From a virus: a DNA stretch of 37,655 bases. The stretch spans positions 1 to 37,655 of the IMG/VR virus record IMGVR_UViG_3300020462_000021. One strand, written 5' to 3'. A program made the translations under genes and the position numbers. Position 1 is the stretch's first letter. Each line of letters begins with the position of its first letter. Shown here piece by piece: positions 289 through 35,970 of the stretch. Below the pieces are notes generated by a model. It had not been told where the DNA came from, did not search any database, and saw only the letters and a list, made by a program, of their open reading frames with translations.

Positions 289-731
289 CAACTGAGGAAG
301 TTATTGCGTCATTGGACCCTACTCGTGATTACGGGGACCGTTCATATGAGCAGGTTGTGACTGAGGTTGAGTCAGGGGCGTTGATGGTCATCCCCAGCGC
401 TAAGGGCGGGCAGCCTATTATTCGTCAAAAGGTAGGTGGCTTTGTCATTAAGGGGAGCGGTCGGACTAACGACAGCAACATAGAGCGGGGCACAGCAGAG
501 ACCAAGCGTTTATTTATGGCTAGGGCTGCTGATGATTTTGATTCTGTTTACGAGTCTGTGGTGACGTCTGCTAACAAAGGTGATGTCCGCGCTCAGAAAT
601 TGTTTATGGAACTCTACGTCGGTAGGCCCACCGAAGCTGTCGATGGGATGGACAAGGATATAGCTAAGATTATTGCCGAACATTACCTAAGATCACAAGG
701 GACACGTACCATTGACATCCTTGACGTATGA
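285..731 (+). CDS. Candidate terminase small subunit (148 aa)
   Basis: This gene lies immediately upstream of, and overlaps, the large terminase gene, the usual place for the small subunit that recognises phage DNA for packaging. Around residues 95-115 it has a segment reading KGDVRAQKLFMELYVGRPTE. That resembles the GD-x-RA-x-KLL...GRP region of small-terminase-like proteins. The N-terminal part (SAKGGQPIIRQ...GFVIKGSGRTN) is glycine rich and not diagnostic. I see no clear N-terminal helix-turn-helix, so the assignment rests mainly on synteny and this one motif. It is translationally coupled to the 62-residue gene upstream (ATGA overlap). Confidence 0.55.
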   Translation: MTTEEVIASLDPTRDYGDRSYEQVVTEVESGALMVIPSAKGGQPIIRQKVGGFVIKGSGRTNDSNIERGTAETKRLFMARAADDFDSVYESVVTSANKGDVRAQKLFMELYVGRPTEAVDGMDKDIAKIIAEHYLRSQGTRTIDILDV

Positions 732-2022
732 GCCACCTAATGTGTGGACAGAGATAAATGATGGGGACGCATACGACCCGTGGCCGTGGCAGGACTTACA
801 TGTTCACAGCCGCAGTGAGACTAAACGTTTAATCCTTGCTTGCGGACGTAGGGCTGGTAAGACTACTGCGATTAAAGCAGAGATTGTGCGCGAAGCCCTA
901 AAGCCCCAACAAAGACAGTTTGGGGTACTTCATTCGCCCTATATCTACGTTATAGCCCCTAACTATGAGCTTACGATGAAGGTGTGGGAGCCCGTATGGA
1001 ACCTCTTTGTCGGAAGAGGGGCTCCATTAAGACACTTGTATAAGTCTCACGACAAGACCAGAAAGCTCATAGAGCTCGTGACTGGCGGAAGAATGCAAGC
1101 CAAATCAGCTGATGACCCGACTGGTTTGCAAGGCGACCGCGTAACAGCAGCCTTTGTAGATGAAGCACAAGACCTTAATCCTGAAGCATGGGCCAGCTTT
1201 ATGCCAGCGCTTGCTGATACCGACGGAAGGCTAATTGCTATTGGTATAGCTAAAGGAAAAGGAAATTTTCGCACGTATTTTCAAATTGGACAAGAAGACG
1301 ACCCCCGTTATTACTCCGCTTCAGTCACGTCACTAGCACACCCAAACATCGAGGAAGACGATTTAGAAGAATTTAAGCGAGACCTAACAGAAGCTCAGTT
1401 CAGACAACAGTACCTCGCTGAATGGGTTGAAGACGACGGTCAGGTGTTTAGAAACATTGACGATTGTTTTGATGGCGAGTGGCTTGAACCAAAAGAGTCT
1501 CAATACCTAATGGGCCTCGACATAGGAAAAATAGAAGACTACACAGTAGCGTATGTCATAGACATTAATACGATGAGCATCGTAGCAAGGGATAGATTTA
1601 ATGGATTGGATTACACACTCCTCGGTCCGCGCATTGCAGGGCTATACAAAAAGTACAAATGCCAAACGATTCATCTTGATGGCTCTGGTGTGGGGGAGCC
1701 TGTGGCTGACATCCTACGCAGCGAGGGTTGTTCTATTACATCGTTTAAATTCACTAACCAATCGAAAGCTACACTTGTATCCACCCTCGCCGCCGAAATC
1801 GAGCATGGGAGAGTTCATTTCCCCAAAGATGACGAAATACTTAAAAAGGAGTTAGAATTATTTGAAGGCACTGTGTTATCTGGCGGAGCTGTTCGGTACG
1901 GGCATCCTGTTGGTTATCATGATGACTCGGTGATGGCTGCGGGCTTAGCGGTCATGAAAGCGAAAAAGAGAAAGAACACCACGTCAATGGCGCGTCGTTC
2001 TGACTATCTGACGTTTGGATAA
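712..2022 (+). CDS. terL: Terminase large subunit (ATPase plus nuclease)
   Basis: This is the packaging motor, which translocates DNA into the prohead through the portal and cuts it. The Walker A motif GRRAGKT lies near residues 44-50 and the Walker B segment AAFVDEA near 146-152. The C-terminal RNase H-fold nuclease shows acidic residues in MGLDIGK (about 267), HLDGSGVG (about 321) and YHDDSVMA (about 402). Length (436 aa) is normal. No ATG is available at the head of the frame. TTG at 712 is preceded by AAGGGA at 697-702 with nine bases between, so a TTG start overlapping the previous gene by 20 bases is most likely. TTG at 721 or a GTG a little further on are alternatives. Confidence 0.95.
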   Translation: MTSLTYEPPNVWTEINDGDAYDPWPWQDLHVHSRSETKRLILACGRRAGKTTAIKAEIVREALKPQQRQFGVLHSPYIYVIAPNYELTMKVWEPVWNLFVGRGAPLRHLYKSHDKTRKLIELVTGGRMQAKSADDPTGLQGDRVTAAFVDEAQDLNPEAWASFMPALADTDGRLIAIGIAKGKGNFRTYFQIGQEDDPRYYSASVTSLAHPNIEEDDLEEFKRDLTEAQFRQQYLAEWVEDDGQVFRNIDDCFDGEWLEPKESQYLMGLDIGKIEDYTVAYVIDINTMSIVARDRFNGLDYTLLGPRIAGLYKKYKCQTIHLDGSGVGEPVADILRSEGCSITSFKFTNQSKATLVSTLAAEIEHGRVHFPKDDEILKKELELFEGTVLSGGAVRYGHPVGYHDDSVMAAGLAVMKAKKRKNTTSMARRSDYLTFG

Positions 2023-2025
2023 TGT

Positions 2026-3900
2026 ATGACCACTGAAGAATTTTACGCAGTGTTTGATGATGACTACAGCCGTTACAGGCGGCTTCGTGATAACGTCTAC
2101 CAAAATTATTTTTCAAACATCAAAGATGACACCGACTACTACAACGGGAATTACCCCAACATTGGGGAAATCATTCCGCGTGAGTATCGTGAGTCTGGCA
2201 TGTCAGCGACTATTCCGCCCACTGCTCGGAACGCTGTAGATAACGCATCAGACCACATACTCACCACCCCTCACATTTACGTCCCAGTGAAACAAACTGA
2301 CAACGACCAACAAGCGCAGCAGGGATTAGCTGAGCGCAAGCGCCAGTTCTTAGCTGCGTTTTGGGAACGAGTGGAGCTGGATTACGCAAGCCCTTTGGCT
2401 ATAGGGCGCAAGAAATTAGTTAAAGACGGTCGGATTGTCGTAAAAAAAGAACTCCGCTGGGAATTAATTCCTGACCCTCCAGCAATGGACTCGACTCGTG
2501 GCGAAAAACAAAAGTACCGCAACAGGCTGCGTAAATTAGCACAGTCTCAATTTTTGTGGAAAGTAAGCGTAGCCCCGAATGAAACTATCGTAGAAGACCC
2601 AGACACTCCTAACGACCCGTTGTATGTCTATGAGTTCTACGAAATTTACCCCGATGAAGCTCGTCGAAGGTTTCCTGAATACGTCGATGTATTTGACGGC
2701 GGTGATTCAGAGAAGCTGGAATTTGTGGAACTCTATACAAAGCCGTTTAAGGAAGACTCTGGCTCCCACAAAATGTGGGTCTCAGGTCAGCTAGTCCATG
2801 ACGAAATGAACCCCTATTGCTGGGAAACAGAGGCGTCCACAGAAGACAAAAAAGATTATGACGGTTATGTGCCGTACATCATTAGAGACTCAGGTTGGGG
2901 TGAGGTAGACAAGAACAACGACCCTGCTGACAGGTATGTAGGTATCCTGCGGTACATCCACCCTGTACTACAGGCGGAAGCGCGTCAGCTTACCGCAGCC
3001 GACATTCAATTACGCTACTCAACGTTCGCTCCAATCATCACCAGAAACATTATGGATGATGACACGCCTATTGAATTAGGTGCTGGTAAGCGGATTAACC
3101 TTGTGGATGACCAAGAGATTGAGTTCCGCAAGCTACCAGAAGTGAACCTGTCCGTCTTCCAGATGATGGACCGCGTACATAATTACACCTCCGAGCTGTC
3201 AAAGCTAGGTACGTTAGGGGGCCAGCCTCAGCGCGGGGTGGAGTCTGCTACTGAGGCAGACATGAATATGCGTAACGCAGCTGTTAAGTTGGGCGGGTGT
3301 GTAGCGTCATTACGAGCCTGTATCGCTATCGCGTCACGGCAAGTGTTCCAAGACATCGAGCACATTCTTGACACACCAGTCACGTTAGCGGGGAGCACTC
3401 GACGTTCTGCTAGCGAAATAACTATCAAGCCAGCAGAAATAGACGAGTTTTACGCAGTAGATGTAGAGCTTCACACGTCAGACAGAGCTGCAATTGAGAT
3501 GCGAGACATGATGGTCTGGTCTCAGTTATACCAAACATACGGTGGAATGCTAAGTGCAGAGACCGCTATGGAGAATTCGGGTATCGAAAACCCACAAGAA
3601 GAGCTCCTCAAGGCGTCTGTGAACACCCTCTTTATGTCACCAGAAGCACAGCAAGTGCGTACTATGATGATGTTGAAGGGTTTGCAGGGTCAAGCTGCTG
3701 AAGTGTTACGAGCGTTCCAATCTAACATGTTGCAGAATTCACAGCCAGTACAACCCCCTCAAGGGATGATGCCCCCACCAGCAGGTATGCAGGAAACGGT
3801 GACAGACCAGTTTAGTGTGGGTGAAGAAGTTACTCCGTCAGGAATAGAAGAAAATGTACAAATGGACCGACAGGTCAACGTAGCGAATGAGATGTTCTAA
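2026..3900 (+). CDS. Portal protein (624 aa)
   Basis: It lies three bases behind the large terminase, the normal position for the dodecameric portal that forms the DNA entry vertex and head-tail joint. The N-terminal half holds a mixed alpha/beta region with Tyr/Trp-rich segments. The middle (around residues 385-440) is helical with Q/A/E-rich stretches such as RGVESATEADMNMRN, and the C-terminus is Met/Gln/Pro rich. The size fits podovirus-type portals. I assign it by position, length and overall character rather than by a catalytic motif. Its stop overlaps the start of the next gene (TAATG). Confidence 0.8.
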   Translation: MTTEEFYAVFDDDYSRYRRLRDNVYQNYFSNIKDDTDYYNGNYPNIGEIIPREYRESGMSATIPPTARNAVDNASDHILTTPHIYVPVKQTDNDQQAQQGLAERKRQFLAAFWERVELDYASPLAIGRKKLVKDGRIVVKKELRWELIPDPPAMDSTRGEKQKYRNRLRKLAQSQFLWKVSVAPNETIVEDPDTPNDPLYVYEFYEIYPDEARRRFPEYVDVFDGGDSEKLEFVELYTKPFKEDSGSHKMWVSGQLVHDEMNPYCWETEASTEDKKDYDGYVPYIIRDSGWGEVDKNNDPADRYVGILRYIHPVLQAEARQLTAADIQLRYSTFAPIITRNIMDDDTPIELGAGKRINLVDDQEIEFRKLPEVNLSVFQMMDRVHNYTSELSKLGTLGGQPQRGVESATEADMNMRNAAVKLGGCVASLRACIAIASRQVFQDIEHILDTPVTLAGSTRRSASEITIKPAEIDEFYAVDVELHTSDRAAIEMRDMMVWSQLYQTYGGMLSAETAMENSGIENPQEELLKASVNTLFMSPEAQQVRTMMMLKGLQGQAAEVLRAFQSNMLQNSQPVQPPQGMMPPPAGMQETVTDQFSVGEEVTPSGIEENVQMDRQVNVANEMF

Positions 3901-4178: not shown

Positions 4179-6160
4179 TGACCCCTGAAGAAAGAATGGC
4201 ACTCCTAGCCGCAATAGCGGGTGGCATAGATGGACTTACTAAGGAGCAATACCTAGAGTATAAAGACGCAGTAGCTACGGTGTTCGCCAACGATGCTGCT
4301 AGTGCTCAGGGCTTCTCAGCCGGCGGTGATATGTGGCAATCTGCCTACGACGCAATTATGTCAGAGTACGCAAAAGTCGAAGCCCGTTATCCGTTTGAAG
4401 GTCTTGGGTACATGGTGACGGGAATTCTTAACGCAACAGATAAAAATGGCGCACCGCTGCTAGACCCTAATGGCACTCCCAGAAAAGTGTACACAATAAA
4501 AAGTCAGCTATTAGGTCAAACATTAGAAGTAACCGAAATTTTAGATTCGCGAGGCAATCCTACTGGAACGTTTAGTGAGTACATTGTTCCCGCCGCACCC
4601 AAAGGCGAAGATTTAAGAGACCGATACATAATTAAAAATCATCCTGATGGAACTATGCAGCGTATTGATAAGACCACTGCTACGTCAGAAGTATCTGTAG
4701 ACGGCGGAAAGACGTGGACTACTGGGTCATTTACTGAGGCTCAGGAAGTAGATGCCGTAGAGATATCTACGGAAATAATTACCAATGCCTCTGATGGCCA
4801 GCAGTACATTATCAACTCAGCTACAGGCGAAAAAATTAGTGGAGCGTTAGGGGTTGACCCCGATTGGCAATACAAAGAAGGGATGTTAGACGTTTCAGAA
4901 GGCAATCTAGGAGTGTCGCAAGGCAACCTAGAGGTTGCACAAGGACAGCTAGCTGAGAACCAAAGGCAGTTTAACTTAGAGTTTGACGAAGACCGCAGTC
5001 AGTGGACGAGGGAATTTGGGGAAGAGCAGCGTCAATTCGATACAGGAGAAAATCGTTTAGAAAGAACGCTAGCAGCTAATAACTACTTTAATAGTCTGAA
5101 TGAGTTAGGTAGAAACTACAGAACGCTTATACAAACAGCTCCTCAGATGGCTAATGCTGCCACTAATCAGGGTGAATTAATACGGAATATTCTGAGTCAA
5201 GGTGGTGATGTACTAGCCAGAACGTTCTTTACCCGAGGTGGTCAGTCTCCGTTACCAGAAATCACTCAAGCAGACTTGCTAAACAACCTGTCTAAAGAGA
5301 TGACAAACATACAACAGTACGAATCTAATGCTATCAAAGCAGAAAATGACCGACGTACCCGCGCTGACTCCCGTCGTGCAGATGAAGAGTTCCGTCAAGC
5401 AGAGGAACAGCGACGTGCTGATGCTCGCGCTCAGTACGGTCGTTTTGTTAATGAAATGCGGCCAACGGTTAACGAGTCAAGCTCGTTTGATGCGGAAGGG
5501 TACAAAAGCCAGCAAGAGAGAATAGCGGACGCTCAAGCTAATCTTGATAATGCAACTAATTTTGACTACTCCTCGATTGTAGTAGGGACCAATCCAGATG
5601 GTTCAGATAGATTAGTAGACCCTAATCTTGTAGCGGGTATTAGAGCTCAAAGTATCAAAACTGCTCAAGATGCTTTGGATGCGATCCCTGCTGCTACCGA
5701 AGCGGACTACACAACATTTAGTAGGACCGAGACGATGCCAGACAAGCCGTCGTTTGCGGATTGGATGGCTACTTCTGAGTTCGCTACTCCTCTAGACCGA
5801 GCTACGTTCAAGACCAGCTTTGCTCCATCCCAGCAGCTTACCGTTCCTGAAGTACCAGTGCCGAGGCTGACTAGCCAAGCTGAACTTATAGCTTCAGATA
5901 TAGCCACGCGACCACCAGCAGTAGACGCCATGTTTGCTGGTACGATGCCAAACGCTCTGCAATTTGGAGACTTGCCGCTTCCTACACTTCAACAGCTAAA
6001 TACACTGACTCCTACGGAACGTCAGATGTTTAACACGAGCTTGCTGACGCAATTTAACACACCGCTAGAAGACGTAGCTCTGCAATCGCAGCGACAGTTT
6101 GGTGCTCCGAGCATGGACAGGAATAGGGACTTGGCTAAATTTAGAGGGTACGCTCGATAA
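4178..6160 (+). CDS. Coiled-coil virion-type protein (660 aa)
   Basis: The N-terminal ~190 residues contain short beta-like stretches (KNGAPLLDPNGTPRK, NHPDGTMQRIDKT). Around residues 238-300 there is a repetitive, heptad-like region of Gln/Glu/Asp (EGNLGVSQGNLEVAQGQL, then alternating QFN/QWT/QFD units). A second highly charged helix sits near 390-430 (RRTRADSRRADEEFRQAEEQ). The rest is Gln/Thr/Pro rich. Its place between the portal and a giant protein, before the capsid genes, suggests an internal virion or ejected core protein. No enzymatic motif is visible. It is coupled to both neighbours by TAATG. Confidence 0.65.
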   Translation: MTPEERMALLAAIAGGIDGLTKEQYLEYKDAVATVFANDAASAQGFSAGGDMWQSAYDAIMSEYAKVEARYPFEGLGYMVTGILNATDKNGAPLLDPNGTPRKVYTIKSQLLGQTLEVTEILDSRGNPTGTFSEYIVPAAPKGEDLRDRYIIKNHPDGTMQRIDKTTATSEVSVDGGKTWTTGSFTEAQEVDAVEISTEIITNASDGQQYIINSATGEKISGALGVDPDWQYKEGMLDVSEGNLGVSQGNLEVAQGQLAENQRQFNLEFDEDRSQWTREFGEEQRQFDTGENRLERTLAANNYFNSLNELGRNYRTLIQTAPQMANAATNQGELIRNILSQGGDVLARTFFTRGGQSPLPEITQADLLNNLSKEMTNIQQYESNAIKAENDRRTRADSRRADEEFRQAEEQRRADARAQYGRFVNEMRPTVNESSSFDAEGYKSQQERIADAQANLDNATNFDYSSIVVGTNPDGSDRLVDPNLVAGIRAQSIKTAQDALDAIPAATEADYTTFSRTETMPDKPSFADWMATSEFATPLDRATFKTSFAPSQQLTVPEVPVPRLTSQAELIASDIATRPPAVDAMFAGTMPNALQFGDLPLPTLQQLNTLTPTERQMFNTSLLTQFNTPLEDVALQSQRQFGAPSMDRNRDLAKFRGYAR

Positions 6161-9100
6161 TGGCTAGCAAATACGACATCCGCAGAACAAGTAATGCTCA
6201 AGGTATTCCTGCAATGCAAAAGGCTAATACCCGTGGCTTCGACCCCAAACAGTTCGAGCCTCCTACTGGTGAAGAAGATCGTGACAAAGAAGAGCGCGAA
6301 GAAGAAGGTGGTGTTATCAACGCCATTAAAGCGGCGTTTGGTGGATTAATAGATCTTACTCAAGCGTCTCGGATCGGATCGCAAGGATATTCTCCTGAAG
6401 ACATATCACAATTAACAGAAGAAGAAAAAATGGCAGCACTGAAGGGAAGTGAAGAAGACCAGCTTGCCGAAGGTAAGATGCTGCTTAAATCAATGAACCC
6501 TGTTGGTTCTGGCGCATTTGGCGCTATAAGTGGTGAATTTGAAAAAGAAGGCTATGACCCATTTACTATCCCTGATATCGGAGGCAGTACCGATGGAGAG
6601 ATGAGAATTATTGGGACGAATTTGCCTATGCCTATTCAGAAGTACGGAGAAAAGAATTTACTTAAAGGAATAAATTTTGTAGCCGAAGAGGGGGCTAAGG
6701 AGTTTACAAACTTATCAAACTACGCCATTCCATTAGCAGGTCGGAGTTTTAAGACTGCTATGGCAGGATGGTCAGCTGCAACAAACAAATGGAGCATCCC
6801 TTATCTGTCTTCGGCAGGAAGAAAAATAGTAAAGCCTACTCTTAAAGTCGCGGGTGAGCTTGTAGACCCCATGCTAACTTCCGAGAGTGCTACTTACTAT
6901 CAGAAGCTCGCCAAAGAAATGGCCATGATTAACATGATGATAGCTGGAGGCACAGCTGCTGGTGAGCAGGTGGACAAAAGAACTGACAATGTAATTTTGA
7001 CTACAGCCGCTACGTTAGGTGGAGCTATAGCTACGGGGAAACTTACCAGTAAGCAGGTAGATGAACTAATTTTTGCCTTTGACCCTAATCGTCGCAAGTT
7101 ACTAAAAGAAGCAATCGGGAAAATTGTGCAAACGCGCCGCATTGACGAAGGCATTAGGCAAATGGAACAAACTGATGGAGTTCCCGTAAATGTGCCTTTA
7201 GGCCCAACTGTTCGCCCCAACTTGCCCTCCACTCCCAAAATTACCGATCCAGACTTTGATCCAGACATACCAACTTACAGGACAACAATAGAAGCACCCA
7301 TTAAACTAGACGAAAGCGCAGTAAGGAGAGACGTACTAAATGACATCAGAGAAGCCGAGGCAGTTAACGGAAAAGGACAAATCGGACCTACGGGCGTTGT
7401 ACAAGAAGGCGGTTATGACAGGCTGGTTAATCCAAGAGGATTGGGAAAAACCTTTAGGGAAAGCATCGAAGCCGTCAAATCCGAGCATCCAAAAGGATGG
7501 GCAGTCGATGTAAAGGAAGACGAGTTTTACTCTAATCCTGACAATCTTGTATTTTTTGATGAGACCCAGACAGCTGGCGCAGTAGTTACCCCTGACGGGG
7601 AGCTTGTATCTGTGCATAAACGTTACGGAAGTGACGCAGATGTTAACGAAATTCTCAGACAGGCTACAGATAATGCTGTCACTTTAGATGCGTTTGACGT
7701 AGGTGGCTTTCTTCCAAGTAAGTACGCTGAGTTTGGTTTTAAGCCTGTAGCAAGAATTAAATTTGACACAGAGTACGCTCCGGAAGGCTGGCGCCCTGAA
7801 GACGGCACTCCTGACGTCGTATTCATGGTTAAAGACACCAACAATGTATTAGACGATGTGGCCCGAGTCCCTGTAGACTACGCGCCTGACGGCTCTATTA
7901 GGTTTGGGTATGAACAAGCCAGAGAGTCTGTTCCTATAGTAAGCACTTACGACGAGGCGTTAGCAATACAAAGCGTTGCAAAGGCGAGAGTACTATCAGA
8001 AACTCCGCTACCACAACGTCCAGACGTAACTCAATTTGACCCAAAGCAGTCACCGCTTCCAGTAAGAGATGTAAGCGTTAAAGAATTTAGTGACGTAACA
8101 AAACCCCAAGCATTGCTGGCTTACGACGACGAGTTTAATTTGCCCCGCTTACGGGAAAGTTTTGATGATTTATATAGAAGAGCTCATATTTTAGATAACA
8201 TGAATAAAGCGGACTGGACGCCAGAAGCCGCAGAAAATCAAATAGCGCTTTTTAGTAGGGGGAAGTATAGAACCTCAGATGGTCAAGTAAGAGATTGGAC
8301 CGACGTACCCGCGCTGCCAGTGGGAAACCAAAATAATTGGCTGTTGCAAAATGAATATCAGGCTCTTATAGAGCAAATGAATTCCCAACTATCAGTAGAT
8401 TTTGGCAAATTGAATGCCATTTCTGTCATAAAAAGCATACCGTTCGGTTCGGGAATGCTAGGTAGACCCCGCATGAGAAGTATTAATAGTTTTCTTACAG
8501 ATGGTCGGTGGAACGAGGAAGCTATTTATAGGGAAAAAACAAACCCTAATGGCTTTATTGATTTTGATTGGGAAACAGGAAACTACATTTGGAAAGGCGA
8601 ATCAGGTAAAGCGGTACTCGATGTCTTCAGGCAGTACGGAGATGTTGTGGCTCGCCAAGAAGCATTAGAAGCAGCAAGTGGCCTTGACTTACGGGATATT
8701 GACCCAATAATGGCTAAGTCGTTAGAGGATGGGCAGCAACCAGAAGAAGTTATTAATGAGCTGCGAGCTGCGTGGGATCGCGGGGAACTGCCGTTTTTTG
8801 GAGACACTATTGAAGCTAGTGGTGTGTACGGAGGAATGTTCCCGAGGCAAATGACTCAATTTATGGAGAGCCTTGCGACAGGAAGTACTGGTAGGCGCAT
8901 ACAAGTTACCGATGATTCGTTAGGGACATACCGCAATACGATGGCTGAAGTTGCTAATTCTAAACGCGCAGAGGACGGAGGCGACAGTTGGCATTACTTA
9001 GGAGATCCCGCAAAATTGGTGAGCATACGGTTGCAAGCGGGTATGGACGCTCTTGCTAACGACTGGATGCGGAGAAATATAAGTACTCCCCGCGCAGGAT

Positions 9101-12100
9101 TAGGCGGAGAGACGTTATCCGAGCGAATGAGAATGCGTCAAAGCTGGGCTACGTCCCAAGAAAATTACCGTGGAGCTCGTGAAGAATTAAGGGATTCGCA
9201 AAAAGCTCTTGACGAAATTAAACGCAAGTCTCTTCCAAGAGCAACCCGCGAAGAGCAAGCAGCGCAACGAGCGCAAAGGGAAATAGGAATAGAAACGGAA
9301 CGGCTAGACAAATTTGACGTTGATTTAAGAAATCGCTATCAAGGTGAAGCAAATCGATTACTACAAGAAGTTAAATCATTTAAGGATGAATTCTTACAAG
9401 TCGGGCGTCCTTTAGTTAAGGGAGCTCGCGGAACAAAGCAGCAGCCAGTGTTGCGTTTACCTACTAAAACAGCAATAGCGCTATCTGACCAAGTTAAAAA
9501 AGTGGAAGAGTTAACCACTTCAGACACGGTATCAGCAAGCGAAATAAGAGACGCTATTGATGAATTGCGGTTCTTGTATGAGCGTGGTTTAACTATTTTT
9601 GATAACGAGCTTAAAAAACGTCCTGCATTGCGTCGCCAAATTGAAGCGCTCCGCACATCTCCCGATGGTCAGCCTTTAGAAGCAACGTCAGATGCGTGGG
9701 AAAATCGACGAATTAGGCATGAGTCAAGGCAAATGGATCACGACCTTGAAATTATTGGTTCAATGCAAAAAAATATAGCAGATTTAAGAATAAGGGTTGC
9801 GCGAGCGGACCCTGAGCGAGTAGGAGAGCTTCAAAGGGAGCTGGAAGAAGCCCAACAATCCCTTAATGAGTCACGTATGAAAGTTCAGGCGTTTAAAAAA
9901 TATTACAACCAACAGCTAGATGTAGCGCGAGGTGTTGGTCAAGATATATTAATGCGTAAAGAAATAGTGTTCGACAAAAATGGAATCCCTCTGCGCGGCC
10001 AGCCTCGCATGGGTCCCGACGGTCTAGTAGAAGGAGATGTTGTTACTCAAGATGTACCTCATTTAGCTAGTAATAGGGGCAAAGTAATTAAAGACTTTGA
10101 GCGTACAGGCGTTATAGTTGATGCTGAGTTTGCTCGCGCTGTAGAAAACGCACTCGCAAGAGACGCGCTACCTGATACTGGGTGGGGCAAAATAGGCGCT
10201 GAAGTAGACAACATAAATAACTCAATCAGAGCTTTCCAAGCGTCTTACGACCTTAGCGGTATGGGCATTCAGGGGTTAGAGCCATTTGGTTTAAGCCCAT
10301 TAGATATGTTAAGTGCCCAAACTACTGCGTATTACACGCTCCTTAGCCCAAAGGCGCAATTAAAATTTCTTCAACAAAATGAGGCAGCTATCAGACGTAA
10401 CATTGACGAGTACTCACTACACTACGCCTCTACAAACAACTTGGGTGAGTTTGTAGTACGCGATAAGGTTGGCGGTATAGCTATTGCGGGAGATGTCCCT
10501 CTCCCATTTCGGACAAAGGTAGACCCTGTAACTGGGAGTCGAAACTATGCGATTGATAAAACAATTCCAACCCCTAAAAGCAAACCGTGGAAAGTAATTA
10601 CGTCACCAGTGTCAGGGAAGAAAATACAAATTAGTTCTCCTCAAGAATGGGAAAGAAATTACGAAAATAAAGTAGCTCAGACTATGAACACATTGTTGTA
10701 TCCATTTACAAAACCATTAAGTAAGGGGCTTAACGTCTCTAATGCCGCATTTACTCAAGGTGGTAACATGATGCGCCATAACATTATGATGAGTTTACTA
10801 GCCACAGCGAATGTCGCCGATGCGTATGGTACAAAGATTAACTTTGGAAAACTTAGACGAGCGCCGTATCAAGGCATTTTGAAAAACCCAGATGACTTAA
10901 CTAAAGAAGAAAAGCGAAAATTAGGATCAACTGTCAATGCGTTGACTGGCTGGCAAGAGAGACGACCTTCTACTTTAGAGCGAGCGTTTATGTTTGCACC
11001 ACGTTTTTTTGGCGCTCAATTAGAAGTGTTAGAAACAGCAGCGCTAGACGCTGGCCCAGCTGGGTCTTTAGCAAAACGAGCTATGCGAGGCGTGGCTCTT
11101 ACCGCTGCGTTATATACGTGGTGGGCTAATAAGCAAAATGGACATCCCACAGACTTCAACCCAACTATCTTTGTTAAAGGTCCCACAGGTGCTGGCACGG
11201 CAATTAAAAACCCAAATTTTCTGAAGCTTATATCAGATGACTCGCGCAAGTATTCGTTACTAGGAAAGTATGACTCTACGCTAGGTTTGCTTCTTAACAC
11301 CACAGGGGAGCTAGGAGACCCGTTAGGAGCCGCTACAAATTTCTTACGCACAAAAGGCTCTCCGTTATCCTCTAAGGCTATAACTGCTGGCACGAGGAAG
11401 AAGTTTAGCGGAGAAGAATGGGTGTACACAGGCGACGTAGCTGCTGATTCTCGGACTACATTAGCCATGCTAGGGTATCTCTTTGGTGAGGATATGCTGC
11501 CATTTGGTATTCAGGGTGAAATAGAAAGCCAACGAGTACTCAACGGAGAAGTAGATCCGTTAAGTGTAATAAATAAGCACTTGTTCTTCGGCGCATTAGG
11601 TGGGAAAGAATCTCCTCTGTCGGCGAATGCAAGAGTGCTCATAGAGGCTCGACGTCGTAACCCTGACGCGGATTATAAAAATATTGCAGAAGTGCCGTCC
11701 CTACTGCGAAAAGAAATTGGGGAAAGCAATCCTGCTATGTATGAGTATCAGACAGCGTTAGAGAGAGCTGCTGCTGATGCCGTTACAGATCCTATCTTAG
11801 TAAGGAAAGGTGCTATAACAAATGCTAAAGCAACCTTGTACGCAAAAGAAGAAGAAATCATGCGAGACGTCATAGCGGGCATATACAGCCGCACTGACCT
11901 TCCTTCTCTTATTAATAGTGCCACCGCAGCTTACGCTACTACGCTCGAAGGCATAGATAACAGGACGCTTACTACAGAATTAGATATTGAAAATCTAACT
12001 CCAGTATTAGCTACCGTCCGAAGAATATCGAATACATGGGACAAGGCTACAGTGCGAGGCATTGTGGATCATAGTTTCCGCAACCAGCTGTTAGAAAATA

Positions 12101-12786
12101 TACGCGCAGCAAATCCAAAGTTGTACGAGCAAGCCGAATCTATTATGGAGCGAGTCACTGAAAATCATCCTGCTATCATACAGGAAACACTTAAAGCCAA
12201 AGATTATTTGTACAAAGAAACGCGCTACTACGCGACATCAGATGACATATTTAAGGCGTTGTTTAATGACAATGTTGGTCTAGGCGAACTTATTATGGGG
12301 ACAACACTCGGGTCACAAGATAGACGATCTAATGAAGAAAAAGCCGCAGCGTTCCGTGAGGACCTTAAAGGAATAGCAGGTGGTGACATTGATAGTATGC
12401 ACGAGTTCCAAGTACTAATACGAACAACATCGGATGCAGCTAACAAAGAACTCTACCAAAAGATTAACAACGCTGTAAACGAATTGGCAGACACATCCCG
12501 TATTGTACAAAAGATGAGCGATCCGCGTTTAGACCTATCGGCTATTGTGTATCTAGGAGCCAAGCCAGTAATGCACCCAGCAGCACAACAAGCGTACCCT
12601 AACGGCTGGCCACTAGAATATACGGTTGCCGACGCCGCCGATGAAATCAGAGCGCTTGCGTATCACCCAGAGAGCGCGGAAAAATATATTGAATTACTTA
12701 CTATGACTCAAGTGCTTAATGAACGAGGTATGCAGCCTCAAGAAATCGCAGCTGGTATTACTGACTTTGAGTTTGGTGGTCGCTAA
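6160..12786 (+). CDS. Giant multidomain virion-type protein (2208 aa)
   Basis: The largest gene, about 18% of the window. Visible parts in order: a charged N-terminus; a hydrophobic stretch near residues 250-295 (MAMINMMIAGGTAAG...TTAATLGGAIATG); and a globular segment near 420-560 that runs GAVVTPDGELVSVHKRYG, then TLDAFDVGGFLPSKYAEFGF, then YAPEGW and PDVVFMV. I associate that segment with GNAT-like or ART-like domains of phage 'polyvalent' proteins. Long charged coiled coils follow near 1000-1077 and 1180-1250. Helical segments near 1510-1560 and 1602-1657 (TLERAFMFAPRFFGAQ) recall large ejected proteins. The likely role is an internal virion protein delivered with the DNA; the enzymatic function is unproven. 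It starts at a TAATG overlap and ends just before a hairpin. Confidence 0.75.
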   Translation: MASKYDIRRTSNAQGIPAMQKANTRGFDPKQFEPPTGEEDRDKEEREEEGGVINAIKAAFGGLIDLTQASRIGSQGYSPEDISQLTEEEKMAALKGSEEDQLAEGKMLLKSMNPVGSGAFGAISGEFEKEGYDPFTIPDIGGSTDGEMRIIGTNLPMPIQKYGEKNLLKGINFVAEEGAKEFTNLSNYAIPLAGRSFKTAMAGWSAATNKWSIPYLSSAGRKIVKPTLKVAGELVDPMLTSESATYYQKLAKEMAMINMMIAGGTAAGEQVDKRTDNVILTTAATLGGAIATGKLTSKQVDELIFAFDPNRRKLLKEAIGKIVQTRRIDEGIRQMEQTDGVPVNVPLGPTVRPNLPSTPKITDPDFDPDIPTYRTTIEAPIKLDESAVRRDVLNDIREAEAVNGKGQIGPTGVVQEGGYDRLVNPRGLGKTFRESIEAVKSEHPKGWAVDVKEDEFYSNPDNLVFFDETQTAGAVVTPDGELVSVHKRYGSDADVNEILRQATDNAVTLDAFDVGGFLPSKYAEFGFKPVARIKFDTEYAPEGWRPEDGTPDVVFMVKDTNNVLDDVARVPVDYAPDGSIRFGYEQARESVPIVSTYDEALAIQSVAKARVLSETPLPQRPDVTQFDPKQSPLPVRDVSVKEFSDVTKPQALLAYDDEFNLPRLRESFDDLYRRAHILDNMNKADWTPEAAENQIALFSRGKYRTSDGQVRDWTDVPALPVGNQNNWLLQNEYQALIEQMNSQLSVDFGKLNAISVIKSIPFGSGMLGRPRMRSINSFLTDGRWNEEAIYREKTNPNGFIDFDWETGNYIWKGESGKAVLDVFRQYGDVVARQEALEAASGLDLRDIDPIMAKSLEDGQQPEEVINELRAAWDRGELPFFGDTIEASGVYGGMFPRQMTQFMESLATGSTGRRIQVTDDSLGTYRNTMAEVANSKRAEDGGDSWHYLGDPAKLVSIRLQAGMDALANDWMRRNISTPRAGLGGETLSERMRMRQSWATSQENYRGAREELRDSQKALDEIKRKSLPRATREEQAAQRAQREIGIETERLDKFDVDLRNRYQGEANRLLQEVKSFKDEFLQVGRPLVKGARGTKQQPVLRLPTKTAIALSDQVKKVEELTTSDTVSASEIRDAIDELRFLYERGLTIFDNELKKRPALRRQIEALRTSPDGQPLEATSDAWENRRIRHESRQMDHDLEIIGSMQKNIADLRIRVARADPERVGELQRELEEAQQSLNESRMKVQAFKKYYNQQLDVARGVGQDILMRKEIVFDKNGIPLRGQPRMGPDGLVEGDVVTQDVPHLASNRGKVIKDFERTGVIVDAEFARAVENALARDALPDTGWGKIGAEVDNINNSIRAFQASYDLSGMGIQGLEPFGLSPLDMLSAQTTAYYTLLSPKAQLKFLQQNEAAIRRNIDEYSLHYASTNNLGEFVVRDKVGGIAIAGDVPLPFRTKVDPVTGSRNYAIDKTIPTPKSKPWKVITSPVSGKKIQISSPQEWERNYENKVAQTMNTLLYPFTKPLSKGLNVSNAAFTQGGNMMRHNIMMSLLATANVADAYGTKINFGKLRRAPYQGILKNPDDLTKEEKRKLGSTVNALTGWQERRPSTLERAFMFAPRFFGAQLEVLETAALDAGPAGSLAKRAMRGVALTAALYTWWANKQNGHPTDFNPTIFVKGPTGAGTAIKNPNFLKLISDDSRKYSLLGKYDSTLGLLLNTTGELGDPLGAATNFLRTKGSPLSSKAITAGTRKKFSGEEWVYTGDVAADSRTTLAMLGYLFGEDMLPFGIQGEIESQRVLNGEVDPLSVINKHLFFGALGGKESPLSANARVLIEARRRNPDADYKNIAEVPSLLRKEIGESNPAMYEYQTALERAAADAVTDPILVRKGAITNAKATLYAKEEEIMRDVIAGIYSRTDLPSLINSATAAYATTLEGIDNRTLTTELDIENLTPVLATVRRISNTWDKATVRGIVDHSFRNQLLENIRAANPKLYEQAESIMERVTENHPAIIQETLKAKDYLYKETRYYATSDDIFKALFNDNVGLGELIMGTTLGSQDRRSNEEKAAAFREDLKGIAGGDIDSMHEFQVLIRTTSDAANKELYQKINNAVNELADTSRIVQKMSDPRLDLSAIVYLGAKPVMHPAAQQAYPNGWPLEYTVADAADEIRALAYHPESAEKYIELLTMTQVLNERGMQPQEIAAGITDFEFGGR

Positions 12787-14444: not shown

Positions 14445-15293
14445 ATGTCTGTAGACAGATTTATACCTTCGCTCTGGGCTGCTACATTACTGGAAAATTT
14501 AAACAATTCCCATGTAGCGGTAAACTTATGTAACCGGAATTACGAAGGTGACATCGCCCAATCGGGTGATACAGTTCGTATTACGTCGATTGGAAATGTA
14601 ACAATCGACAATTATAACAAGAACACTACAGTTATTGCGCCTGAGACTCTTAACGATTCTCAGCAGGTCCTTACAATCGACCAAGCAAAATACTTTGCGT
14701 TCCAAGTAGATGATGTAGATGCTAGGCAAGTACGTGATGATGGTGCGTTGATGGACGTAGCCATGCGTGACGCAGCTTGGGGTCTTGGCAATCTAGCCGA
14801 TGAATCGGTATTGGCGGCAATGCAAGCGCAAACCGCTACTGGTAATGCACTCGGAGCCATGACCATCGGTACAGGTAACGTTGATGCGTATGACAACCTT
14901 GTTGACTTGTCAATAAAGTTAGACGAAAACAACGTGCCCCGAGATGGGCGTTGGTGTGTAATCCCGCCGTTTTATCATGGCTGGTTACAGAAAAACGCAA
15001 ACTTCGTGTCATACGGTACACAAGCAAACCGTGAAGACCTTGAGAACGGAATCATTGGTGCTGCATCTGGTATGAGGATTGTTGTATCTAACAACCTTCC
15101 TACTTCTGGTACAGGACGAAACTACGTTATCGCTGGTCACTCGGACGGTGTTACTTATGCAGAGCAAATTAATACAGTAGAAGCGTATCGAGTGCAAACT
15201 GCATTCAGCGATGCTGTTAAAGGTTTGCATTTGTACGGATACAAAATTACGCGACCATACGTGTTGGCTACTGCCGACTGTATCTCAGTATAG
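14445..15293 (+). CDS. Major capsid protein (282 aa, P22-coat-like family)
   Basis: The protein opens VDRFIPSLWAATLLENLNNS, continues YEGDIAQSGDTVRITSIGNV and has DQAKYFAFQVDDVDARQV near residue 85. This pattern (FIP-x-LW-x-x-LL, GDTV-I-IG, D-KYFAF-VDDVD) is characteristic of the HK97-fold P22-coat-like major capsid family common in tailed phages. It forms the icosahedral shell. TAGGAG precedes the start, and it follows the scaffold-like gene by 19 bases and precedes a small candidate decoration gene. Length is on the short side but usual for this family in small genomes. Confidence 0.92.
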   Translation: MSVDRFIPSLWAATLLENLNNSHVAVNLCNRNYEGDIAQSGDTVRITSIGNVTIDNYNKNTTVIAPETLNDSQQVLTIDQAKYFAFQVDDVDARQVRDDGALMDVAMRDAAWGLGNLADESVLAAMQAQTATGNALGAMTIGTGNVDAYDNLVDLSIKLDENNVPRDGRWCVIPPFYHGWLQKNANFVSYGTQANREDLENGIIGAASGMRIVVSNNLPTSGTGRNYVIAGHSDGVTYAEQINTVEAYRVQTAFSDAVKGLHLYGYKITRPYVLATADCISV

Positions 15294-24218: not shown

Positions 24219-24791
24219 ATGAGACTAGCAATAGCCATAGGATTAGCTCTCACAGTTGTACTTCTTGCGCCTACCGCTCTATCTAATCAACTATATATTA
24301 GCTATGCTGTACCTCCCGTACCTGTCGTGCAGGTCTATACTCCGCCCGTAATAGCCCCTGTAACGCCGCTCAGCGAGGGTGTAGGTGCAAGGACGGTTAA
24401 AGACATTGCTTTATCTACCGATGCAGCTGAGAATGATTTAATCTTCCTGTCTAAATGGGAGCTGATGGATGTACTTGCTCAGACTTCTTGGCGCAGTTAC
24501 ATCACTGCCAATATGTATTACATAGAAGAGTTAGACATGTGGTATTACGACGACTTTTATGCTGTGAAGCTGTATGATCTAATGATGTGTGAAAGCTCTG
24601 GCAGGATAGATGCCATAGGTGACATAGGGATTGGGACTGGTATTTCCGTTGGGTTGTTCCAAATAAACACAGGGTATTGGCCTCAGCTGGCTAAGAAGTA
24701 CCACTTGTTTAGACCAGTAGACAACGCACAGGCGGCGTATGAGGTCTGGGAAATACTAGGGTGGGACGCTTGGAGTTGTCATGACGGATGA
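24219..24791 (+). CDS. Secreted lytic transglycosylase / lysozyme-like enzyme (190 aa)
   Basis: Residues 1-22 form a signal peptide or signal anchor (LAIAIGLALTVVLLAPTALS), followed by a Pro/Val-rich linker. The C-terminal half has the SLT/lysozyme-like motif MMCESSGRIDAIG with the presumed catalytic Glu near 124-125, then VGLFQINTGYWP near 145-156 (the GLFQI-N signature). It would cleave peptidoglycan glycan strands from outside the cytoplasmic membrane. It overlaps the following holin-like gene by 11 bases. It could act in lysis or be virion-associated; placement with membrane proteins favours lysis. Confidence 0.82.
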   Translation: MRLAIAIGLALTVVLLAPTALSNQLYISYAVPPVPVVQVYTPPVIAPVTPLSEGVGARTVKDIALSTDAAENDLIFLSKWELMDVLAQTSWRSYITANMYYIEELDMWYYDDFYAVKLYDLMMCESSGRIDAIGDIGIGTGISVGLFQINTGYWPQLAKKYHLFRPVDNAQAAYEVWEILGWDAWSCHDG

Positions 24792-25418: not shown

Positions 25419-25601
25419 TTGTTAGATATTCTAATGGCCGCAGTCGCGTTAACGTTATTAGTAGGATGGTTAATGGAGGATTTGAATGGCAAGATTAAGA
25501 TTCAAGGGAGAGTTAGACGGCCTAAAGTACAGCGGGCATCCCGTGTCAGGGACTATATCAAGTTTCTATGGCGTTGTGCGAAAAAAATTATCGGGCGGTA
25601 A
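25419..25601 (+). CDS. Possible small membrane peptide overlapping the M23 gene (up to 60 aa)
   Basis: This frame begins at TTG (25419), with an ATG at 25434. It encodes a hydrophobic stretch (ILMAAVALTLLVGWLM) followed by a basic tail, and runs 116 bases into the M23 gene in another frame. The 76-base gap between the nuclease and M23 genes is otherwise unusual in this tightly overlapped block, which argues that something is encoded there. No good ribosome-binding site is seen. A 28-residue GTG-initiated frame (25412) competes for the same stretch. Treat as tentative. Confidence 0.3.
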   Translation: MLDILMAAVALTLLVGWLMEDLNGKIKIQGRVRRPKVQRASRVRDYIKFLWRCAKKIIGR

Positions 25602-26115
25602 GGGGCATACGGGCCTAGACATTGCTGGCGCCGAAATTGATGGCGCCCCGATTACAGCGCCAATGGAAGGAATTGTGCATAGTGTATTTCTGGCTCAAGA
25701 AAATCCCCAACAATATACGATGGAATACTTCTTTGGTAATTGCGTTGTGCTTCGTCATGACGACAGCGACGGTAGTCTTCTTGGGTACACTCTTTATGCT
25801 CACATGGCTGCAACGCCAAGCGTCTCGCGCTCTCAACCCGTAAACGAAGGCGACTTACTTGGGCACGTTGGTAACACAGGCCGAAGCACTGCCCCTCACC
25901 TTCACTGGGGTTGTACAGTCGCAGACAATCCGTACTTGTCACGATCTAAAGGGTTGAACGATCCCCTAAACTTCCTAGATAATAGTGAAGAGGAAGTAAA
26001 CGATGTAGATGAGCAGCAGAAGAAAGCAAATGACTTAATTGATGCTGGGCAAAGTATATTAAACAATGTAATAGATGACCTTCAAGGCAAGGTAGATGAT
26101 ATGGAGAATGACTAA
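25486..26115 (+). CDS. M23-family peptidoglycan endopeptidase, endolysin (209 aa)
   Basis: This is a zinc metallopeptidase of the lysostaphin/M23 type, which cuts peptide cross-links in peptidoglycan. The zinc ligands are GHTGLD (H41, D45) and HLH (H138, H140), with an additional conserved His in LYAHM (H106). The domain covers residues ~15-165. The C-terminal 45 residues are an acidic coiled coil (DEQQKKANDLIDAGQSILNN), perhaps for wall binding or regulation. There is no signal peptide, so export needs the holin. GGAGG precedes the start, and the stop overlaps the holin start (TAATG). Confidence 0.9.
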   Translation: MARLRFKGELDGLKYSGHPVSGTISSFYGVVRKKLSGGKGHTGLDIAGAEIDGAPITAPMEGIVHSVFLAQENPQQYTMEYFFGNCVVLRHDDSDGSLLGYTLYAHMAATPSVSRSQPVNEGDLLGHVGNTGRSTAPHLHWGCTVADNPYLSRSKGLNDPLNFLDNSEEEVNDVDEQQKKANDLIDAGQSILNNVIDDLQGKVDDMEND

Positions 26116-34959: not shown

Positions 34960-35970
34960 TTAGCAATCGTCACACTGTTTTAGTATGAAGTTAGCTATTT
35001 TGTCGGCTGCGTCCATTGCCTCAAAGATTAAGTTCGGATCTTTGTCGATGGCCTCGGACCAGCCCTGAATGTAGGCCTCGGAATTTTTCTGAGTGCTTTC
35101 CACGTTTTCAAGATTGCACCACTTTGACAAGTAGGCAGCTGACCACTCAACGCTCATTTCTTCCTTGCCTCGCTCACTGTGCATTTTATAGTTGAAATTT
35201 CTCTCAACGCGTCCCTTCTTGGATGTACTGTGTCCGATCTCGTGGAAGGCTACAGAGTAATAAGCGCTTGAGTGCTCAAACTGTCCCTTCAATGGGATAT
35301 TGACTGTGTCCTTGCTTGGCAAGTAGTGAGGCGCCTCACCGGCCATTGGAAGCTCGTTAAAGGCTACACCAGTACTATCAAGGTAGGCTGCGATGATCTT
35401 GTCTGCGTACTCATCAGGCTTGAAATTTTCATCTGTTGGATTGTGGCAAGGCTGGCCCTTCTTAGCCTCGGACCAGTCGACCTGCTCAGCATTGAAAACG
35501 TTAAACCAAGACAAGCGCATCTGGCCAATATATTTTCCGGTCTCAGCATTGATCCGGATGCGGATCTTTTTCCCTTCCTTGTCTGTACTTGGTACGCAGT
35601 GATTAGGCTGTGTACAGTCAGTCTTGCACTTGAACGGAGAGTAAAAGCGGTTAACTCCTGTTGTAGCCTTCTCTCCCTTGATTACTTTACCGCCTCGGTT
35701 AGATATCTCTTGAAAGCCGATCCAAGTGTTGGAAGTGTAGCCCCTAGCAATAGCCTTAAGAGTAAAGATCCAAACGTTCTTACCCTTGTAGGCTTCACCA
35801 GTGATCCGTCTTGGTAGGCCTAACTCAGCTGAGACGCCAGAGTCCCAAGGGAGGCGCCTAGTTTTTGCCATAGTGGCTTTTACTGATTCGTTTATATCGC
35901 TCTGAATTTTCCCAAAGGCTTTTTTCTGCTTTGGGGTTCGTAGTCCATAAGTTTCGATTGCTGTAGTCAT
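34960..35970 (-). CDS. ardC: ArdC-like antirestriction protein (336 aa)
   Basis: It combines the two ArdC parts: an N-terminal DUF1738-type single-stranded-DNA-binding region (residues ~15-165, with GEAYKGKNVWIF, GYTSNTWIGFQEIS, GGKVIKGEKATTG and WFNVFNAEQVDW) and a C-terminal zincin-like domain with HEIGH (H243, E244, H247) and a downstream EEMSVEWSAAYL segment holding the likely third ligand. Proteins of this family protect incoming DNA from restriction in plasmids and phages. It carries an extra Cys-rich insertion (KCKTDCTQPNHC, C115, C119, C125) between the two halves that I do not expect in standard ArdC. AAGGGA precedes the start. Confidence 0.85.
   Translation of the reverse strand: MTTAIETYGLRTPKQKKAFGKIQSDINESVKATMAKTRRLPWDSGVSAELGLPRRITGEAYKGKNVWIFTLKAIARGYTSNTWIGFQEISNRGGKVIKGEKATTGVNRFYSPFKCKTDCTQPNHCVPSTDKEGKKIRIRINAETGKYIGQMRLSWFNVFNAEQVDWSEAKKGQPCHNPTDENFKPDEYADKIIAAYLDSTGVAFNELPMAGEAPHYLPSKDTVNIPLKGQFEHSSAYYSVAFHEIGHSTSKKGRVERNFNYKMHSERGKEEMSVEWSAAYLSKWCNLENVESTQKNSEAYIQGWSEAIDKDPNLIFEAMDAADKIANFILKQCDDC

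Follow-up and report, generated by a model that had tools for sequence, protein, structure and literature searches.

It has been known since 2017 that giant phage proteins can contain GNAT domains, which were then described in injected "polyvalent proteins" (Iyer et al. 2017, PMC5512222). A precedent standing alongside such injected GNAT and ADP-ribosyltransferase (ART) domains is Alt of phage T4, a packaged ART acting on RNA polymerase (PMC5512222, PMC7824862), while the phage GNAT Rac (gp28 of LUZ19) causes RNA polymerase alpha to be cleaved (PMC7552054). Variable enzyme modules borne on head proteins that are thought to be injected characterize the MuF polymorphic toxins, described in a paper whose main text mentions neither GNAT nor acetyltransferase (PMC5576092). 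Here we analyze the complete IMG/VR virus record IMGVR_UViG_3300020462_000021 (37,655 bases, hereafter the window) and a 2208-residue protein encoded in it, P0001, with a predicted GNAT-fold domain of the phrog_2563 family at residues 411-615. We consider it rather likely that this domain is an acyltransferase module which sits in an exchangeable slot of a virion-carried giant protein and modifies a host protein early in infection.

The earlier note on this DNA, made from the letters alone, had pointed to a catalytic-looking segment in P0001, either acyltransferase-like or ART-like. The peptides that it cited occur in the P0001 translation, all within one domain (approximately residues 411-610), and structure prediction, set beforehand as the check, yielded a GNAT fold. 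The AlphaFold2 model of residues 411-615, obtained with a 43-sequence alignment (A6), had a predicted local distance difference test score (pLDDT) of 88.2 and a predicted template modelling score (pTM) of 0.84. Its elements are ordered b1-a1-a2-b2-b3-b4-a3-b5-a4-b6-b7, which is the GNAT strand/helix order. The top VIA-align match was Escherichia coli RimI (5isv_B; Z 10.4, root-mean-square deviation 2.8 Å, 133 residues aligned), where rows within 1 Z count as tied and a Z of 8 is attained by 206 of 995 chains. Of the 50 entries listed, nearly all are titled acetyltransferase or GNAT, the rest (e.g. 1wwz, 1wk4) being uncharacterised by title. The best Foldseek matches in the PDB were also GNATs, with modest scores (E 8.6e-4, TM 0.42); among viral models, large phage proteins were matched (E 1.9e-14), one of them named "Large polyvalent protein associated domain-containing protein".

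Profile comparisons placed the domain in a defined family. The phrog_2563 profile ("unknown function") matches residues 464-558, with E = 1.5e-5 for the whole protein and 4.6e-7 for the domain alone, and a profile built from 42 relatives, with the window row excluded, recovers the window domain at E = 2.6e-26. Judged by sequence, membership in this family is far beyond chance. Similarity between the sequences of RimI and the window domain was not significant, and searching solved structures by sequence, with the domain or its profile as the query, gave irrelevant weak matches only (Zuotin, E 0.77; RGS8, E 0.019).

The ART half of the earlier proposal was not supported. ART domains do occur elsewhere in giants bearing the same GNAT family, but the GNAT topology, the GNAT structure matches and the lack of an ART-PolyVal match in P0001, with both Pfam and a local ART profile, speak against this identity for residues 411-615. 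The ART fold is absent from the Foldseek and VIA lists, which does not in itself exclude it; the modelled strand order is that of GNATs. We regard an ART as extremely improbable, and the model supports a GNAT fold instead. The GNAT half is upheld by the fold, the conserved candidate general-acid tyrosine and homology to solo phage "acetyltransferase" proteins.

This tyrosine, Y522, corresponds to Tyr115 of RimI, which is the active-site acid of that enzyme, and tyrosine is the usual acid in GNATs (PMC3851700, PMC4964394). A general-acid tyrosine on helix 4 is common in GNATs, not universal. Y522 and W544 are also invariant in a nine-sequence set of phage and plasmid matches. The D510-Y522 spacing in the window (12 residues) equals that between Glu103 and Tyr115 of E. 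coli RimI, and most relatives have a distance two residues shorter than the window; an hhalign alignment with RimI, itself non-significant, pairs the LY...GF segments. The search patterns did not contain Y522, S484 or D510.

The canonical motif A/P-loop of GNATs reads [RQ]xxGx[GA], and it is missing at the expected acyl-CoA site in every row of A6. Three solo proteins also lack the classical pattern, yet are glycine-rich at that loop. Typical GNAT P-loops and the atypical loop of Hpa2 have both been presented (PMC4964394). Because the P-loop is atypical across the whole family, our claim is a GNAT fold and not a typical GNAT enzyme, and acyltransferase activity of the window domain is probable. 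The missing motif is the best argument for the main rival explanation, by which a catalytically dead GNAT fold has been retained as a binding or structural module of a virion protein. The fold by itself is no proof of activity, and a decayed copy in a related contig (L192) is still in frame. On the other hand, the tyrosine is kept in 43 and the aspartate in 41 of 43 rows, and solo forms in unrelated viruses and plasmids retain Y522 and W544. Some sister carriers do without the module, so it is not needed structurally. We consider a dead domain rather unlikely.

The distribution of the family was examined by tblastn and by profile-guided scans. With the 147-residue window segment as the query, 63 of 50,697 phage records matched at E <= 0.01 and 43 of 72,556 plasmid records at E <= 0.1; 194 phage records matched when the query was L049, a nearer member of the family. 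Viral contigs gave no match to the window's own domain as a single-sequence query. Profile-guided scanning of viral contigs yielded 388 relatives in 428 candidate stretches (80 loci kept), and that of genome contigs yielded 31 relatives in 63 candidate stretches (30 loci). Of the 80 viral loci, 61 have the domain in an open reading frame (ORF) of at least 1000 amino acids (aa), and in 38 this ORF reaches 2000 aa or more (maximum 4988 aa); many of these loci are near-duplicates, and some ORFs are cut by contig ends. Among non-redundant rows, 18 of 42 reach at least 1000 aa.

Solo forms were found in Streptomyces Likavirus-type phages, where they are annotated as acetyltransferase, and in the halophilic archaeal virus HATV-2. 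In the T7-type Pseudomonas phage UNO-SLW3 a solo phrog_2563 protein is encoded by the first annotated gene (L006, 752-1231), upstream of the RNA polymerase gene, a position that suggests an early takeover or anti-defence role. Minor head proteins with a C-terminal phrog_2563 GNAT are encoded by Microbacterium phage Caron (gp4, VG15, phrog_193; L001, 3765-5342), Methanobrevibacter virus vir075 (phrog_2468; L003, 3867-5519) and Lactococcus fujiensis (phrog_2494; L118, 5946-7205). These three MuF-like head-protein/GNAT fusions are good laboratory models, and since the family has solo, head-fused and plasmid forms, it offers tractable model proteins. In two of two Rhodococcus plasmid regions (L008, 8362-9510; L009, 8953-9495) the GNAT lies close downstream of an N-formylglutamate amidohydrolase gene.

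Several giants combine the GNAT with other domains in one polypeptide: LPD22 and ART-PolyVal in Limnohabitans phage DC33, ART-PolyVal and LPD38 in L049, ART-PolyVal in L069, 2_5_RNA_ligase2 (2H phosphoesterase-type) in L028 (3958-11532), and DUF2213 and NUDIX in L050 (7588-10971). ART-PolyVal is present in the same ORF in 39 of 80 viral, 1 of 30 genome and 4 of 42 non-redundant loci. The taxonomy line of the DC33 record (L002, PQ492659) says Inoviridae despite a 39 kb genome and a short tail, and looks wrong. The spread of the domain over such varied carriers would fit a conflict or takeover module. An active GNAT might instead serve detoxification, assembly or decoration, modifying small molecules or the phage's own proteins, as the superfamily takes small molecules as well as proteins (PMC4964394). 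The closest folds in the VIA list, however, include the protein N-acetyltransferases RimI, Ard1/Naa10 and Naa50, and delivery is suggested by the ART-PolyVal partners and by the fusions to head proteins; we find such a role in place of action on a host protein quite unlikely.

The carrier itself is a genuine 2208-residue ORF, as the earlier note had read it. Its frame runs uninterrupted for 2208 codons, the start overlapping the final base of the stop codon of the upstream ORF, and an environmental contig (L191/L147) encodes an ortholog of identical length with 49.5% identity across residues 1-2202. P0001 has no Pfam match at E <= 1, and the GNAT is the one enzyme-like domain recognised in it with Pfam and PHROGs. 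A Kyte-Doolittle scan indicated weak hydrophobicity in the N-terminal part, near residues 51-70 and 277-297. The carrier body matches no PHROG or Pfam profile; a search of solved structures with it gave 40 hits at E <= 1, all weak (best 0.0069), with many coiled-coil or helical proteins among them. With hhalign no relation of the body to the carriers of DC33, L045, L047 and L049 was found (0.6%), and the carrier C-terminus as a single-sequence query had no match in viral contigs.

Sister phages were collected with the major capsid protein (70 loci) and the portal candidate (27 loci, 70-94% identity) as queries. In close loci a giant ORF occupies the same position and the body from approximately residue 611 onward is common (22-50% identity by tblastn), while the stretch ahead of this shared body varies between sister carriers. 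In the window and the 97 loci (L121-L217), the GNAT profile at E <= 1 detects the domain only in the window and L191/L147. The slot was readable in 21 distinct contigs, window included (L206, with two shorter ORFs, was excluded). It holds a GNAT in two (window, L191/L147), a decayed GNAT in one (L192), a different insert in four (L130/L213, L148/L195, L196 and the 5'-truncated L129) and no long insert in 14 (L121, L127, L131, L134, L136, L137, L138, L142, L150, L153, L198, L205, L209, L217). Slot lengths are 390 aa with the GNAT, 346 aa with the decayed copy, 435 aa for the L130 type, 253 aa for the aligned part of L129 and 95-177 aa with no insert. Near-identical contigs were counted singly, so independent events are fewer than these counts. 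Slot labels are clustered on the body tree, with two changes for three groups; its long branches (L129, L192) make the order of gains and losses unsafe.

The L192 copy and the window segment share 41% identity (E 3e-31), and L192 has changes at W544 and in the D510 region. In the comparison of the window with L191, the GNAT segment (residues 421-610) shows 64% identity, whereas five other segments show 49-53%; the GNAT segment has a nonsynonymous divergence (dN) of 0.30 and a synonymous divergence (dS) of 1.83; outside it, dS was computable only for residues 341-420 (0.72). This conservation fits purifying selection on the module.

The other insert (L130, 2720-3439; L129, 538-1290) contains YH and ST motifs in both contigs. 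A one-sequence comparison relates the L130 and L129 copies to one another (28% over 85 aa, E 8e-7), and sequence comparison links neither to the GNAT. An ART label for the insert of L130/L196/L148 and L129, based on YH followed by ST as seen by eye, was not confirmed by the ART profile, Pfam, PHROGs or hhalign against three ART-PolyVal domains. An AlphaFold2 model of the L130/L129-type insert from two sequences (pLDDT 41.5) did not confirm an ART fold, and these analyses assigned the insert to no family or fold. Six weak matches to the L130 insert (L221-L226) were chance-like short proteins and were dropped. Alignment A9 leaves out the L045 and L068 rows.

The giant gene lies in a head-gene region with the order terminase large subunit, portal candidate, 92-aa ORF, 660-aa ORF, giant, scaffold candidate and major capsid protein (Table 1); the portal candidate has no Pfam or PHROG match. 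This order, together with the domain fusions to minor head proteins elsewhere, makes carriage of P0001 in the virion plausible. The giant could alternatively be a late cytoplasmic protein, not packaged, that acts in assembly or lysis, and the lack of any PHROG or Pfam match in its body would suit such a role. Its position between packaging and capsid genes and the fusion of the same domain to head proteins speak against this explanation, which we hold to be improbable. Outside the head region, the ArdC-type gene is a second conflict-type gene of this phage, and the products of the SLT_3 and Peptidase_M23 ORFs are probably cell-wall enzymes.

Table 1. Features of the window and of the P0001 protein (res, residues)
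Feature	Position	Strand	Evidence
Terminase large subunit	712..2022	+	Terminase_6C 5.7e-12; phrog_2 1.1e-32
Portal candidate	2026..3900	+	position and size only
P0001, candidate virion/ejection protein, 2208 aa	6160..12786	+	uninterrupted frame, equal-length ortholog, head-gene location
Carrier N-terminal part, res ~1-344	6160..7191	+	sister-carrier alignment
Variable slot, res ~345-655 (approximate boundaries), GNAT in window	7192..8124	+	alignments, slot lengths
GNAT-fold domain, res 411-615, phrog_2563 family	7390..8004	+	AlphaFold2, VIA, PHROG and profile matches
S484, end of strand 4	7609..7611	+	Ser in 43/43 A6 rows; Gly in solo Lannister and UNO-SLW3 proteins
Loop res 486-494, expected acyl-CoA P-loop site	7615..7641	+	canonical [RQ]xxGx[GA] in 0/43 rows
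D510, strand 5	7687..7689	+	Asp in 41/43 A6 rows
Y522, candidate general acid, RimI Tyr115 equivalent	7723..7725	+	Tyr in 43/43 A6 rows
P541, W544, G549, P551, strand 6-7 loop, possible acceptor site	7780..7812	+	each in 43/43 A6 rows
Helical carrier body, res ~656-2208, common to sister phages	8125..12786	+	tblastn 22-50% identity; alignment A12
Major capsid protein, P22-coat-like	14445..15293	+	phrog_267 5.4e-64; PF11651 8.2e-7
SLT_3 lysozyme-like ORF	24219-24791		SLT_3 match
Peptidase_M23 ORF	25486-26115		Peptidase_M23 match
ArdC-type protein	34960-35970	-	ArdcN 2.3e-16; MPTase-PolyVal 6.5e-21; phrog_7245 anti-restriction protein

In the scenario that we favour, the giant head-region protein would be packaged in the virion and would enter the cell together with the phage DNA, where the GNAT would use acyl-CoA to acylate an amino group on a host protein in the opening minutes of infection. 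Rac and T4 Alt, taken as analogues, suggest RNA polymerase or the translation machinery as possible targets; alternatively, the target may be a defence protein. Beside the missing P-loop motif, several observations weigh against this scenario. Pfam acetyltransferase models match none of the 43 family members, and the conservation of P541, W544, G549 and P551 was partly built into the search patterns. P551 is replaced by histidine in L191 and the L192 copy lacks several conserved residues, so the domain is dispensable in some relatives. Carrier residues 1-100, compared in 100-residue steps, are more conserved (72%) than the GNAT. The solo forms show that packaging is not essential to the function of the family, and no virion proteomics was found for the phage group of the window.

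A bolder reading, possible but in our view doubtful, is that injected enzymes are truly swapped at residues ~345-655 of the carrier: phages that are otherwise close relatives would fill this slot with a P-loop-less GNAT or a different module of the YH..ST type, or leave it empty, depending on the hosts they encounter, and the GNAT would represent a new class of protein acylator. If this is true, the GNAT would hold its acyl donor without a classical P-loop. A non-exhaustive search of open-licence PMC articles found none that describes a comparable swap slot in an ejection protein. Since intact, decayed, other and empty alleles occur naturally in close phages, the importance of an injected enzyme can be tested by allele comparison and not by deletion of the whole protein.

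Three results are added here: a phrog_2563-type sequence is assigned to the GNAT fold and a candidate catalytic residue is named for it; the family as a whole lacks the canonical P-loop; and an orthologous head-region protein is polymorphic at one site, where the module is present, absent or replaced. What had been called an unresolved enzyme now has a defined fold and a candidate catalytic residue.

Among known systems, RimI, the best VIA match, provides the Tyr115 and Glu103 counterparts, and differs from the window domain in having a canonical P-loop (RQGLGRA). The phrog_2563 solo "acetyltransferase" proteins of Streptomyces phages (e.g. Lannister) belong to the same domain family as the window domain; unlike it, these proteins of 125-159 aa are accessory or early, are not embedded in a carrier and have a glycine-richer P-loop (KGRG, KGMG). 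Rac is a functional analogue, a phage GNAT that modifies host transcription, but it is expressed inside the cell from a separate gene; homology was rejected, as Rac belongs to phrog_3986 and not phrog_2563 and shows no profile similarity.

The GNATs of polyvalent proteins, as presented in PMC5512222, resemble the window domain in being RimI-like, in lying within very large phage proteins and in their portal-terminase gene context. Members of polyvalent GNAT family 1 typically share their polypeptide with an ART, a feature seen in many of the giants described above; the agreement with phrog_2563 giants concerns this ART-neighbour architecture. Identity of the window family with polyvalent GNAT family 2 (Mycobacterium phage Alice gp113) was rejected (hhalign probability 0.1%, hidden Markov model score -1.5). 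Polyvalent proteins are defined by several disparate domains; in P0001 one enzyme-like domain was recognised, and relatives in other phages have several. The gene context of P0001 does agree with that of polyvalent proteins, near late genes of a phage with identified terminase and capsid genes and a portal candidate assigned by position only. It differs from the MuF polymorphic toxins (PMC5576092) in having no MuF or VG15 match and in carrying its module internally and not at the C-terminus; the reading of P0001 as an injected head-region protein with a variable enzyme module would nevertheless be in line with these toxins, and GNAT/MuF-like fusions do exist within the phrog_2563 family.

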